From an uncultured Roseovarius sp. (GTDB lineage: Bacteria; Pseudomonadota; Alphaproteobacteria; Rhodobacterales; Rhodobacteraceae): a stretch of DNA of 64,000 bases. The notes below the pieces were generated by a model. The model saw nothing but the letters and a program-made list of their open reading frames with translations. It ran no database searches and was not told where the DNA came from. A program made the position numbers and the translations under genes. This document shows, in pieces, positions 24,006 through 48,021 of this stretch; position 1 is the first letter of the stretch; each line of letters opens with the position of its first letter. The stretch lies in assembly GCF_913057115.1 (NCBI RefSeq), contig NZ_CAJXNN010000007.1, positions 1 through 64,000 of the forward strand, given 5' to 3'.

Positions 24006-25616
24006 ATGACAAAGGTCAAAGATCAGATTCTCATCGACCGGCTGGCGGATGCCGCCCGCAATGGCAAGATCTCGCGCCGGTCGTTTATGCACTACTCGAT
24101 GGCGGCGGGCATGACCGCTTCGGCCGCCACTGGGCTCTGGACCACTCAGGCTCATGCGCAGCCACAGCGCGGTGGCACTTTCAAAGTGGGCATGCATGAC
24201 GGAAACTCGTCCGATACCCACGACCCGGGCCAGTATGTCTCGCGCCAGCAGATCTATCTTGCCCACCAATACCGCAGCTATCTGACGTTGATCGAACCTG
24301 ACGGCTCGCTCGGGCCTGATCTTGCAAGCGACTGGTCGGCCAACGAGGATGCCTCGGTCTGGACCTTCGAGATCAACCCGAACGCCTCGTTCCACAGCGG
24401 CAACCCTGTAATGGCCAAAGACGTTGTCGCCTCGCTCAATCACCACCGTGGTGAGGAGTCGACCTCGGCGGCCAAGGCTCTGCTGTCTTCGGTGACCGAT
24501 GTGGCTGCTGATGGTGATCACACGGTTGTCGTGACGCTGGAAAGCGGCATTGCCGACCTTCCTTGGCTGTTGACCGACTACCACCTTGCCATTTGTCCGG
24601 CGAATGACGACGGCAGCATGAACTGGCAATCTGGTGACGGCTCGGGTCCCTACAAGATCGACCAAGGGGAGTGGGGCGTTGGCTGGAAACTTAGCCGCCA
24701 TGACGGCTGGCACCTCGAAGGAGCCTACTTCGACAAGGTCGAGATGCTGGTGCTCAACGACCCGAACGCGCGCCAGACTGCATTGGTCACCGGCGATGTT
24801 GACGCAGTGTCGCTGATCGACATCAAGACCTCGGCGCTGTTGCAGCGCGACCCCAACATTGCCGTGGAGAACGTACCCTCGGCGGCCGCGATCACCATGC
24901 CGATGTTCTGTGACACCGCACCGTTCGACGATGTCAACGTGCGCAACGCGCTCAAGCTGTCCATCGACCGCAACGAGATCATCGAGAAGATCGCCTTCGG
25001 CGCGGCCACCATCGGCAACGACTTCCACCATTCGCCGGCCCAGCCATATTGGCCCGAGGACATACCGCAGCGCGAATATGACCCCGATCAGGCCAAATCG
25101 CTTCTGAAGAAGGCGGGGATGGAAGATCTCACAGTCAGCATCTCGACAGCCGACAGCCTGTTCTCGGGTGCCGTTGACATGTGCGTACTTTACGCCGAGC
25201 AGGCCAAGCAGGCCGGCATCACCGTCAATGTCGTACGCGAGCCCAACGACGGCTACTATTCCGACGTCTGGCTGAAAAAGCCGTTCTGCGCGGTTTCTTG
25301 GGGCGCGCGCCCTACGCCGGACGTTATGTATACGCTTGCTTACAAGTCCGACGCGGACTGGAACGAAAGCCGCTGGCAAAACGAGAAGTTCAACGAGCTG
25401 CTGCTACAGGCCAAGTCGGAACTCGACGACAGCTTGCGCGCCGAGATGTACCGCGAAATGGCGATGCTTGCCCGCGACGATGGCGGCACGATCATCCCGA
25501 TGTTCAACAACTTCGTCTATGCGCGCCGTAGCAATGTGATGCGCGGCGAAAGCCTCGCGGCAAGCTGGGAACTGGACGGTGCCCGCGCGCCAAGCCGCTG
25601 GTGGTTCTCGTCCTGA
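24006..25616 (+). CDS. Tat-exported peptide/nickel-type ABC binding protein, paralogue 1
   Basis: This 536-residue solute-binding protein of family 5 has a twin-arginine signal (KISRRSFMHYSMAAG, Arg24-Arg25, cleavage likely after AHA at 51). The mature part has the family features (DGSLGPDLASDWS, DYHLAICPANDDG, NDPNARQTALVTGDVDAV). It captures a peptide-like solute in the periplasm for the importer encoded downstream. The start is set by the Tat signal and AGGGATACAAC. Its neighbour at 25935 is a full-length paralogue of identical length. The ligand cannot be named from sequence. Confidence 0.9.
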   Translation: MTKVKDQILIDRLADAARNGKISRRSFMHYSMAAGMTASAATGLWTTQAHAQPQRGGTFKVGMHDGNSSDTHDPGQYVSRQQIYLAHQYRSYLTLIEPDGSLGPDLASDWSANEDASVWTFEINPNASFHSGNPVMAKDVVASLNHHRGEESTSAAKALLSSVTDVAADGDHTVVVTLESGIADLPWLLTDYHLAICPANDDGSMNWQSGDGSGPYKIDQGEWGVGWKLSRHDGWHLEGAYFDKVEMLVLNDPNARQTALVTGDVDAVSLIDIKTSALLQRDPNIAVENVPSAAAITMPMFCDTAPFDDVNVRNALKLSIDRNEIIEKIAFGAATIGNDFHHSPAQPYWPEDIPQREYDPDQAKSLLKKAGMEDLTVSISTADSLFSGAVDMCVLYAEQAKQAGITVNVVREPNDGYYSDVWLKKPFCAVSWGARPTPDVMYTLAYKSDADWNESRWQNEKFNELLLQAKSELDDSLRAEMYREMAMLARDDGGTIIPMFNNFVYARRSNVMRGESLAASWELDGARAPSRWWFSS

Positions 25617-42341: not shown

Positions 42342-42758
42342 TCAATGTGCCCCGCCGCAAAATCCGTGATCGGCCAGCGAGGCCAGAACATAGCAATCGC
42401 TTGATGGCCCTGCGCCATCGCACCCGCCGGTGATCCGTTCCAATTCTCTTTCCAGTTTGCGCAGCTGGGCGATCTTGTCGCGCACCGCTTCCAACTGCGC
42501 CTCGGCGATGGCATTGGCCGCGCCGCAGGTCCGGTCGGGATGGTCCTGCAACTCGATCAGCGCGCGGATCGCCGCAATGGAAAACCCAAGATCGCGGGCA
42601 TGCTTGATAAAGCCCAGCTGCTGCAATTCCCCCTCGCCATAACGGCGCTGGTTGCCCTCGGTCCGCTCCGAGGCTGCAAGCAGCCCCATTTGCTCATAGT
42701 AGCGGATGGTCGGAACCTTGACCCCGGTTCGTTTCGACAATTGCCCAATCGAAAACAT
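42342..42758 (-). CDS. MerR-family metal-responsive regulator
   Basis: The 138 residues begin with the MerR helix-turn-helix (MFSIGQLSKRTGVKVPTIRY), then a dimerisation helix, then a Cys-bearing C-terminus. Cys78, Cys113, Cys122 and Cys134 resemble the zinc/cadmium-sensing group (ZntR, CadR) more than the copper sensors. The gene diverges from a cation efflux gene, and a typical MerR operator promoter lies between. It should activate that promoter when metal is bound. The metal is not certain. Confidence 0.88.
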   Translation of the reverse strand: MFSIGQLSKRTGVKVPTIRYYEQMGLLAASERTEGNQRRYGEGELQQLGFIKHARDLGFSIAAIRALIELQDHPDRTCGAANAIAEAQLEAVRDKIAQLRKLERELERITGGCDGAGPSSDCYVLASLADHGFCGGAH

Positions 42759-42830: not shown

Positions 42831-43463
42831 ATGGCAGGATGTTGCGGGCATGACGCAAAGTTCGAGGGGCTGTCGCCGGACTACAAGCGCAGGCTATGGA
42901 TGGTCATCGCCATTAACGCGGTCATGTTCGCCGTGGAAATGGGCGCGGGTCAAATGGCCGGGTCCCAGGCCCTCAAGGCCGACGCACTGGATTTCCTGGG
43001 CGATGCGTTGACCTATGGCATTTCGCTGGCCGTCATCGGGGCATCGGTCCGGGTCCGTACCGCCGCCGCACTGGCAAAGGGCCTCAGCCTTTTCGCCATG
43101 GGCGCATGGGTTTTCGGCTCCACCCTTTACCGCGTTTTCTACATCGGCGTGCCCGAGGCCGAGATCATGGGCGTGATCGGATTCATGGCGCTGGCGGCCA
43201 ATCTCGCCAGTGTGGTGCTTTTGCTGCCCTACAAGGATGGCGATGCCAATGTGCGCTCGGTCTGGCTGTGCTCGCGCAACGACGCCATCGGCAATGTCGC
43301 GGTGATGATTGCCGCGCTTGGGGTCTGGGGAACTGCCACGGGCTGGCCCGACCTGATCGTTGCGGGGATCATGGCGGGGTTGTTCCTGTCGTCCTCGGTG
43401 CAGATCGTCCGGCAAGCCCTGGAGGAGCGCCGCAGCGACGCCGCCCGGGAAACCTGTGCCTAG
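42831..43463 (+). CDS. Cation diffusion facilitator-like efflux protein
   Basis: The 210-residue protein has a Cys/His N-terminus (MAGCCGHDA) and about six membrane segments. Asp54-x3-Asp58 in segment 2 (DFLGD) and Asp151-x3-Asn155 in segment 5 (DAIGN) correspond to the metal site of CDF transporters. There is no large cytoplasmic C-terminal domain, so it is a short form. It would export a divalent metal in exchange for protons under MerR control. AAAGGGG precedes the ATG. Confidence 0.82.
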   Translation: MAGCCGHDAKFEGLSPDYKRRLWMVIAINAVMFAVEMGAGQMAGSQALKADALDFLGDALTYGISLAVIGASVRVRTAAALAKGLSLFAMGAWVFGSTLYRVFYIGVPEAEIMGVIGFMALAANLASVVLLLPYKDGDANVRSVWLCSRNDAIGNVAVMIAALGVWGTATGWPDLIVAGIMAGLFLSSSVQIVRQALEERRSDAARETCA

Positions 43464-46264: not shown

Positions 46265-46621
46265 ATGCGCCAACTGACCGGTGTCATCAGCGACCGGGGC
46301 TCGAAATACGCGGTCTCGGGTGGCCCCGCGCGGGACCGCGCGGGGGTGGATGCTTTCCTGAAAGACCTCAAGAAGGACAAGAAATTCGCCAAGGCCACCC
46401 ATAACACATGGGCCATGCTGATGGCTGATGGCACGCCCTTGAAGGGCGACGATGGCGAATCCGGGGCCGGTATGGTGATCGTCCGGATGCTGGAACGCGC
46501 CGGGCTCACCGACCACGTGATCGTTGTAACCCGTTGGTACGGCGGCAAACATCTGGGCGGCGACCGCTTCCGGCATGTGCAGGATTGCGTCACCGCATAT
46601 CTCGACGATCTCAAGGCTTGA
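46265..46621 (+). CDS. YigZ/IMPACT-family protein
   Basis: The 118 residues cover the conserved N-terminal IMPACT domain (FAKATHNTWAMLMADGTPLK, GDDGESGAGMVIVRML, VTRWYGGKHLGGDRFRHVQD). The C-terminal domain of full-length YigZ is absent, so this is a one-domain form. The biochemical role in bacteria is unclear. It is probably co-transcribed with the protease gene. Its stop codon lies inside a perfect FNR box. Confidence 0.88.
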   Translation: MRQLTGVISDRGSKYAVSGGPARDRAGVDAFLKDLKKDKKFAKATHNTWAMLMADGTPLKGDDGESGAGMVIVRMLERAGLTDHVIVVTRWYGGKHLGGDRFRHVQDCVTAYLDDLKA

Positions 46622-46631
46622 TGCACATCAA
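46618..46631. promoter_or_regulatory. Perfect FNR/FnrL box before the DUF6455 cassette
   Basis: TTGATGCACATCAA matches the FNR consensus TTGAT-N4-ATCAA at every position. It overlaps the yigZ-like stop and is 71 nt before the first cassette ATG. If it acts as a class II site (centred near -41.5), the start of transcription would be near 46666 and the -10 near 46654 (TTAGCC). Confidence 0.8.
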
Positions 46632-46702
46632 GGTTGCTTGGAGACAGATTCGTTAGCCTTTCCGCATGCCCGATCCATGGGCCACAGCAGGAAGGCTTTG
46701 CC

Positions 46703-46969
46703 ATGACCAGCACAACGACCCTCAAGAAACACGCCGCCTTGGTGGACCGGATGGCCACCACCCTCGGCATCGACCTCGAAGAAAAGGCGATGCAAGGCCA
46801 GATCGACTTTGATCAGATCAGCGACGCCGTGATGGCCTGTTCGGGCTGTTCGAACCCCGAAGACTGTACGCATTGGCTTGATGCGCAGCAGGGGCAAACC
46901 GACGCGCCGCCTGACATCTGCCGTAACGCCGATCTCTTTGCGCGCCTGAAGGCGGGAAAACATGCCTGA
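46703..46969 (+). CDS. Small Cys4 protein, DUF6455 type, first of three
   Basis: The 88 residues form two parts: a helical N-terminus (LKKHAALVDRMATTLGIDLE) and a cysteine motif Cys46-x2-Cys49-x5-Cys55-x17-Cys73 followed by x-Asn-Ala. The set of four cysteines could bind zinc or an Fe-S cluster. AGGAAGG precedes the ATG. The next gene starts inside it (8-nt overlap). Preceded by an FNR box. DUF6455 is my best recollection of the family name; the function is unknown. Confidence 0.75.
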   Translation: MTSTTTLKKHAALVDRMATTLGIDLEEKAMQGQIDFDQISDAVMACSGCSNPEDCTHWLDAQQGQTDAPPDICRNADLFARLKAGKHA

Positions 46970-47246
46970 GCCTATCGCTCCGCTCGGCCACCCGCGCCGC
47001 CATTACTGGTTGGTCCAGGGCATGGCCCGCGCCACAGGCCTTGATCTGGCCGAGGCCGTGCGCGACGGGCGCCTTGGTCTGCATGACTGGGCCGATATCG
47101 TCCATAACTGCCGCTCTTGCGGCTGGGCAAATGGATGCGAGCGCTGGCTGGCCAACGATCCCTGTGTCGCAGCCCCGCCGAGCACCTGCCGCAACCACGC
47201 GGCGCTTGCCGCCTTGAAAATCGAACAGGAGCTTGCACAGGCATGA
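46962..47246 (+). CDS. Small Cys4 protein, DUF6455 type, second of three
   Basis: The 94-residue paralogue has the same layout: RHYWLVQGMARATGLDLAEA, then Cys50-x2-Cys53-x5-Cys59 with a following WL, an extra Cys68, and Cys76-x-Asn. It overlaps the gene before by 8 nt and the one after by 4 nt, so all three are translated together. Compared with the first protein it has a ten-residue Pro-rich N-terminal addition. Confidence 0.75.
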   Translation: MPEPIAPLGHPRRHYWLVQGMARATGLDLAEAVRDGRLGLHDWADIVHNCRSCGWANGCERWLANDPCVAAPPSTCRNHAALAALKIEQELAQA

Positions 47247-47533
47247 CCGCTCAACTTTCCCACCTCGGTGACCCGAACCTGCATTTTTGGCTCACACGCT
47301 CGGTGGCGCGTGCCGTGCGGGTCAATCTCTCGGATGCTCTGGCCTCCGGTCAACTTACGCCGACGGGCTATGCCGACATGGTCACCAAATGCCGCCGATG
47401 CCCGCACGCCGAGGCTTGCGCGGCATGGCTGGCTGAAAATGCCGCCGGCGCGCCGGAAGTTCCGGCCCATTGCGCCAATGCCGCCATTCTCAATGACCTG
47501 ATCGCCGAACTGGGGGCGACCAGCCTGCACTGA
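47243..47533 (+). CDS. Small Cys4 protein, DUF6455 type, third of three
   Basis: The 96-residue paralogue (LHFWLTRSVARAVRVNLSDA) has Cys50-x2-Cys53-x5-Cys59-x17-Cys77 and the x-Asn-Ala ending. Its ATG overlaps the previous stop (ATGA). The three copies share layout but are well diverged, so the duplication is old. They could form a hetero-oligomer. Function unknown. Confidence 0.75.
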   Translation: MTAQLSHLGDPNLHFWLTRSVARAVRVNLSDALASGQLTPTGYADMVTKCRRCPHAEACAAWLAENAAGAPEVPAHCANAAILNDLIAELGATSLH

Positions 47534-47610: not shown

Positions 47611-48021
47611 TTACTGCGCGGTGATCACTTCCATCACAAGGTCACCATCCACGCGGATCGGGCCATCCTCCTTGGCGCCCAAGGTGTATTCGAAAACGCC
47701 GGTGGACTTGCCACCATCTTCGGCATGCACCATCAGCATCAGCATATCACCGGCGGCCACATCTTCGGTCAGGATCGCGGCCACATCATTGGTCTCGCCC
47801 TTGCGAATGGGCGCATGCCCCACAACCGGACCGGGGGCCATGTCGGCATCCGTGCGGTGCACAACCAGCCAGCCATTCTTTTCGGCAACGATTTTGTCGG
47901 CGCTCACAACGCCGGTTTCAACGGATTGATCCGAGGCCATGACCATCGGCGCGGCGTGGTCGTCGGCAAAGGCCGTGGTGGCGGCCAGCGCGAAAAGTGC
48001 CGTCATGCATGTACGTGTCAT
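47611..48021 (-). CDS. Exported protein with a DUF7282-like domain
   Basis: The 136 residues start with a signal peptide (MTRTCMTALFALAATTAFA), then a beta-rich domain with GWLVVHRTDADMAPGPVVGH and EDGPIRVDGDLV near the end. That pattern resembles DUF7282, known from secreted archaeal and bacterial proteins. It is periplasmic, of unknown function. Assignment is from memory of the motif. Confidence 0.65.
   Translation of the reverse strand: MTRTCMTALFALAATTAFADDHAAPMVMASDQSVETGVVSADKIVAEKNGWLVVHRTDADMAPGPVVGHAPIRKGETNDVAAILTEDVAAGDMLMLMVHAEDGGKSTGVFEYTLGAKEDGPIRVDGDLVMEVITAQ

Follow-up and report, generated by a model that had tools for sequence, protein, structure and literature searches.

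Organization of the locus

The window analysed here, a stretch of 64,000 nucleotides from an uncultured Roseovarius sp., carries an FNR-type box in front of three small genes whose products all belong to the Pfam family DUF6455 (Table 1). The initial annotation, made from the letters alone, had described a perfect box followed after 71 nt by three paralogues with overlapping reading frames. Each of these points holds: the box matches exactly, the gap (46632-46702) ends at the ATG of the first gene, and adjacent frames share 8 nt (46962-46969) and 4 nt (47243-47246). With 114.4, 89.5 and 75.1 bits against a Pfam cut-off of 23.7, p1, p2 and p3 are clear members of PF20056, a family without known function from which they do not differ; the domain stands alone in each of them (Pfam), and they are the sole DUF6455 matches in the genome. 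The cysteine spacing had likewise been read correctly, namely C46-x2-C49-x5-C55-x17-C73-x-N75 in p1, C50-x2-C53-x5-C59-x16-C76-x-N78 in p2 and C50-x2-C53-x5-C59-x17-C77-x-N79 in p3. Comparison of p1-p3 with NCBIfam gave no match, and the nearest named relative of p1 comes from Roseovarius sp. MMSF_3281 (83%). Downstream, a gene for a DUF7282 protein (Pfam; 47611-48021, - strand) converges with the operon, and no intrinsic terminator was found between the two.

Table 1. Features of the DUF6455 locus, with positions in the window
Feature	Position	Strand	Basis and remarks
Upstream YigZ/UPF0029 gene	46265-46621		stop codon 46619-46621 covered by the box
FNR-type box TTGATGCACATCAA	46618-46631	+	exact match; conserved upstream of relatives; centre at -41.5 from the putative transcription start
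-10-like hexamer TAGCCT	46654-46659	+	TANNNT spacing after the box; transcription start at ~46666 predicted from the spacing
DUF6455 protein type A (first gene, p1), 88 aa	46703-46969	+	Pfam PF20056, E 2.6e-33; tree; structure model
DUF6455 protein type B (middle gene, p2), 94 aa	46962-47246	+	PF20056, E 1.5e-25; middle-gene clade
DUF6455 protein type C (last gene, p3), 96 aa	47243-47533	+	PF20056, E 4.6e-21; tree

Conservation of the FNR-type box

Apart from the box, the window holds no exact TTGAT-N4-ATCAA site. Sites with at most one mismatch number four against 1.13 expected, and four or more occurred in 3 of 100 shuffles. The three one-mismatch sites, all CTGAT-N4-ATCAA, lie at 24813, 58293 and 60767, about one such site being expected by chance; those at 24813 and 60767 are inside long ORFs, by eye a substrate-binding protein and GlyA. 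The whole 3.44-Mb genome holds 17 exact boxes and no instance of the reversed pattern.

Lack of conservation in related genomes had been named beforehand as one observation on which the reading could fail. We searched upstream of the first DUF6455 domain in the window and in 100 further clusters. Of these, 47 come from the 49 further genomes of the genus with a match, and 53 are the top-scoring ones among 114 further positive genera. Within 350 nt, the best match has zero, one or two mismatches in 22, 63 and 16 of these 101 clusters, respectively; at most one mismatch is thus found in 85 of 101 clusters compared to 28 of 3727 random stretches from the same loci. Within 140 nt upstream, 91 of the 101 clusters carry the degenerate form TTGAY-N4-RTCAA, compared to 1 of 721 other ORFs from these loci after stretches containing the DUF6455 box had been removed; the controls are mechanical ORFs of at least 120 aa, some of which may not be real genes. 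An earlier control had counted 27 of 752 ORFs, because the upstream stretches of neighbouring, mostly antisense, ORFs contained the DUF6455 box itself.

The distance from box to DUF6455 domain is 64-127 nt in nearly all of the 101 clusters, and only 3 of 93 later genes are preceded by a separate box. Across 54 loci (the window and one locus from each genus), of which 44 carry TTGAY-N4-RTCAA, the TTGA and TCAA columns hold 1.55-2.0 bits, the central CTG about 1.0-1.3 bits and the GG just 3' of the box 0.6 and 1.7 bits; the flanking columns mostly stay below 0.4 bits. In 80 named loci, which partly come from the same genomes as the 101 clusters, zero, one and two mismatches occur 10, 54 and 16 times, and in another 20 loci, partly from other subfamilies or elsewhere in the genome, a box with at most one mismatch precedes 15 lead genes. 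Exceptions exist: within Roseovarius, cluster L084 (also L245) has GTGATCCTGATCAC only, 38 nt upstream, and the DUF6455 copies L311 and L312 are without a close box.

Since in the window the YigZ gene ends within the box, the box might be a chance site or a part of that gene. The box is, however, also conserved behind other upstream genes and at other genome sites. Given its conservation across the 101 clusters and its near absence from the control ORFs, we reject this explanation, the probability of which is negligible.

Promoter geometry and candidate regulators

In 27 of the 54 loci, and in 23 of 48 loci of the same genus (both sets include the window), a TANNNT hexamer begins 35-37 nt downstream of the first base of the box; no other offset between 14 and 63 nt has more than one. 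This preferred position places the centre of the box at -41.5, which is the class II activator position of FNR. The class II spacing is thus found by way of the TANNNT hexamer, from which the transcription start is predicted; a scan for generic sigma-70 promoters and terminators found nothing.

The genome encodes a Crp/Fnr protein (G000:C2) with N-terminal cysteines that carries CGDCPIRHRAVC near its N terminus and that, by reading of its sequence, is a probable FnrL. Its gene adjoins a radical-SAM gene with an exact box, by reading hemN. Fifteen of the 17 exact boxes became loci, and ten of the adjoining ORFs were scanned. They encode COX1 (ccoN), Usp, a radical-SAM protein, PPK2, PmbA/TldD, a rhodanese, SLAC1, an MFS transporter, a Crp/Fnr protein and a weak Metal_resist match. 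An FNR core regulon has been predicted that includes UspA, the cbb3 oxidase, the oxygen-independent coproporphyrinogen oxidase and peptidase U62 (PMC2908626), and an excerpt on R. capsulatus names PPK2 as an FnrL target (PMC4634722). One exact box adjoins the MFS/Crp pair, in which the Crp/Fnr gene is Dnr-like. The sites recognised by FnrL, Dnr and FixK are almost identical, so the box alone does not name the regulator.

The DUF6455 operon shares its box sequence, the -41.5 geometry and its rhizobial gene neighbours with the FnrL regulon of Rhodobacteraceae and the FixK2 regulon of rhizobia, and an FnrL-like gene is also present in this genome. The control by FNR that the initial annotation had proposed is strongly supported by the comparative sequence data, the FnrL-like gene and, from another order, the gene context. 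On the comparative data we regard an FNR-type activator as nearly certain, and the operon is very probably induced at low oxygen.

A literature search turned up DUF6455 by name in one paper and PF20056 in none, with the proviso that listings as hypothetical protein only would escape it. In that paper, a DUF6455 gene of Azospirillum brasilense is a table row with +1.67 log2 in the presence of ethylene (adjusted p 0.049), as seen in part of the source (PMC11819568). No paper found in the search lists DUF6455 among the targets of FNR, FnrL or FixK2, and no Roseovarius transcriptomes under oxygen limitation turned up. Hypothetical targets in the accessible parts of two regulon studies could be DUF6455 proteins (PMC4634722, PMC6710368). 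Further candidates are published FnrL or FixK2 targets without assigned function, such as RCC00435 and RCC00901 of R. capsulatus and bsl4623 and bll7787 of B. diazoefficiens.

Distribution and gene context

DUF6455 occurs in 50 of 60 genomes of the genus, in 115 of 198 genomes of the family (one per sampled genus) and in 19 of 385 genomes of the class sample, 4 of the 19 belonging to Rhodobacteraceae. Because 83 of the 198 family genomes and 10 of the 60 genus genomes are without a match, the proteins are not needed for low-oxygen life in general.

The box also precedes the family outside Rhodobacteraceae. A set of 27 lead genes was used, from which L168 and L169 (no frame with the motif), the same-family L155, second genes of arrays and two more Mesorhizobium copies had been dropped. 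In this set, which still holds the near-copies L274/L275 and L162/L276, a box with at most one mismatch precedes 10 of 27 genes (controls, 26 of 2572 stretches); allowing two mismatches gives 17 of 27 (controls, 142 of 2572). The FixK2 consensus TTG[AC]-N6-[TG]CAA, taken from part of the source (PMC6710368), fits 17 of 27 lead genes and 39 of 2572 control stretches; four of the ten lead genes with three or more mismatches fit this looser consensus.

Within Rhodobacteraceae, the cluster often lies at a housekeeping site near an M48 peptidase gene and rimO, a location of little help in deducing a function. Nine of the 22 plasmid records with a DUF6455 match were examined. In three Mesorhizobium records, fixJ, a PAS sensor and a Usp gene are followed by DUF6455 (with mgtA in between in one of them), and a perfect box stands 65-66 nt upstream of DUF6455. 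In two of these three, CBS, DUF1858, Crp/Fnr and pseudoazurin genes come next, then either nirK and ccoS or NnrS. On plasmid pSR7 of Aminobacter sp. SR38 (L457), a DUF6455-like gene flanked by two DUF2249 genes sits in a compact nap, nirK, NnrS, hemN and nor region; it scores 21.1 bits, under the cut-off of 23.7, and its box has three mismatches. In Thioclava, perfect boxes precede two copies, both with M48/DUF2254 genes nearby. The context in L454, L455 and L456 (Pseudosulfitobacter, Microvirga and Aminobacter pMET1) is without low-oxygen genes, and the Pseudosulfitobacter and Microvirga copies have no close box.

Among 197 family genomes, DUF6455 is found in 43 of the 54 with NosZ compared to 71 of the 143 others (Fisher p 1.7e-4, kinship ignored), NosZ being counted at E <1e-50, a threshold far more lenient than the cut-off of the model itself, which 3 of 198 genomes pass. 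Reaction-centre genes show no association with DUF6455 in the family genomes (p 0.66), and a link to photosynthesis genes was rejected on this ground.

The NosZ association, the NnrS, nirK and nor neighbours in Mesorhizobium and Aminobacter, and the box in front of the Dnr-like gene of this genome would also suit an operon that answers NO instead of oxygen through a Dnr/NnrR-type regulator, its products protecting against or sensing nitrosative stress in denitrification. Against this stand the lack of a full NosZ in this genome, the 71 genomes that hold DUF6455 without NosZ, and the other exact boxes at ccoN/Usp and hemN, which are FNR-core genes in the available part of the regulon prediction (PMC2908626). 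We consider control by NO unlikely and retain control by oxygen.

The four-cysteine proteins

Freely varying cysteines had been named as a further observation that would speak against the proposal; instead, four Cys are kept in 193 of 194 aligned domains. C46 and C55 are invariant, followed by C73 (193), P70 (188), C49 (187), N75 (185), H10 (179) and W58 (177). The seven domains without C49 have a Cys two residues later (C-x4-C-x3-C), so that the apparent loss of the second Cys was rejected in favour of a shift. The same shift is seen in 12 of 155 named domains, a set that partly overlaps with the 194, and one more is cut by a contig end. The fourth Cys mostly follows the third after 16-18 residues. 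The number of thiols is thus kept while their spacing moves, a behaviour that ligands of a metal or cluster would show.

A tree of 142 domains splits in two with support of 99/99: 43 of 46 first genes and 15 of 18 single genes fall on one side, and 33 of 34 middle genes and 37 of 44 last genes on the other, where a clade of 27 (100/83) contains 24 middle genes. This tree rests on 88 columns, with 65 of 139 inner branches open and the bootstrap not settled; at the level of its main split, the first genes clearly appear as an old lineage apart from the middle and last genes. In 29 triplets, genes 2 and 3 overlap in 25 cases and lie within 4 nt in the other four; for genes 1 and 2, 13 pairs overlap and 28 are no more than 30 nt apart. 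The starts used were those giving an overlap closest to 4 nt, a choice biased towards this value. The A-B-C order, close or overlapping, is thus kept in many genera, in line with the earlier proposal that the three proteins are made together.

The AlphaFold2 model of type A (pLDDT 88.9, pTM 0.77) has five helices; C73 immediately precedes helix 5, and C46, C49 and C55 are grouped around the turn that joins helices 3 and 4. A Foldseek search gave no match in the PDB (best E 6.9), a sequence search of solved structures gave no relative, and a VIA fold comparison with nine chains found nothing; the sequence and fold searches thus yielded no solved relative in support of any metal.

A four-Cys metal site is the likely function of the conserved thiols. 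One alternative, a thiol-disulfide switch or metal-trafficking site without a fixed cluster or zinc, would agree with four free-standing conserved thiols and the redox-linked regulation. A disulfide needs a pair only, however, and here all four Cys are kept and the shift of the second is compensated, which makes this alternative improbable.

The same FNR-type operon could encode adaptors or chaperones without redox chemistry, in which the Cys4 motif holds structural zinc. Small helical Cys4 domains often bind zinc, no relative in the PDB decides the matter, and the change from C-x2-C-x5-C to C-x4-C-x3-C fits a tetrahedral site of either kind. The arguments against zinc are indirect: the second half of the domain is without a CxxC knuckle, and the spacing C-x2-C-x5-C plus one Cys recurs in the [4Fe-4S] proteins WhiB and EndoIII/MutY. 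The same spacing with one distant Cys is that of the ligands in E. coli FNR, namely C20, C23, C29 and C122 according to an excerpt of the source (PMC5398030); unlike FNR, DUF6455 has neither an effector-binding nor a DNA-binding domain. Because of this spacing in common with E. coli FNR, an Fe-S cluster is the slightly better guess, in what is close to an even choice over zinc; the adaptor or chaperone reading as a whole is the less probable one, if a serious contender.

WhiB-like [4Fe-4S] proteins of actinobacteria and their phages are also small and contain C-x2-C-x5-C plus one Cys. In these the first Cys precedes C-x2-C-x5-C, and a G-x-WGG turn is present; in DUF6455 the order is reversed, the fourth Cys coming after, and p1-p3 have no such turn. 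An hhalign comparison of DUF6455 with 57 phage proteins picked by this motif gave a weak match, with a probability of 13.5, and 5.3 with a doubled alignment; kinship with WhiB, circular permutation included, found no support. A search for viral relatives gave 12 pattern matches, none of which was confirmed.

Proposed mechanism

The reading that we prefer, with a probability of roughly 0.6 as a whole, is an oxygen-controlled FNR-type operon of Cys4 DUF6455 proteins with accessory functions at low oxygen. When oxygen falls, the Fe-S regulator FnrL, or a Dnr-type relative, would bind the box at -41.5 and activate a class II promoter. A single mRNA would then yield three translationally coupled proteins of types A, B and C. 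In each of these small helical proteins the four conserved Cys would provide the thiolates of a single metal site, with an Fe-S cluster that is labile to oxygen or NO slightly favoured over zinc. The proteins might have an accessory or regulatory role in metabolism at low oxygen and in denitrification, to which we give an even chance. Type A would act alone in most single-gene genomes and A, B and C jointly here; assembly of the three into a hetero-complex, as put forward in the initial annotation, is a tentative suggestion.

A bolder version, which we regard as rather improbable, is that DUF6455 represents a new class of small alphaproteobacterial Fe-S proteins, sensitive to oxygen or NO, that serve as regulators or adaptors, act as FNR/FixK-controlled A-B-C heteromers and form a second sensing layer downstream of FNR. 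If true, their role would be comparable to that of WhiB proteins, but with another fold. DUF6455 is present in 115 of 198 sampled genera of a major marine family and in other orders. Apparently a steady target of FNR/FixK-type control, it may be an overlooked part of marine bacterial life with little oxygen. It offers a short, testable route to a missing component of low-oxygen and denitrifying life, for which three natural paralogues and a single-gene form allow comparison.

Neighbouring genes and distant members

Further upstream in the window, a MerR-like regulator (by eye; 42342-42758, - strand) is divergent from a cation-efflux protein (Pfam; 42831-43463, + strand), and the two are likely a metal-response pair.

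The Cys region of a distant group with an extended N terminus is related to that of DUF6455 (hhalign probability 97). In some distant members the N terminus resembles DUF1127, with E values of 0.064, 0.59, 0.14 and 0.063, all under the cut-off, and no DUF1127 match was reported in eight long distant proteins. Some distant members appear by eye to be membrane-anchored: L258, L261 and L269 have an N-terminal hydrophobic helix, with a perfect FNR box upstream of L261 and L269 and none at L258. In L272, L274 and L275, from distant Alphaproteobacteria, a long N-extended and a short DUF6455 gene form two-gene arrays, with a 6-nt gap in L272 and a 4-nt overlap in L274 and L275, and FixK2-like boxes lie 67-71 nt upstream of these arrays.
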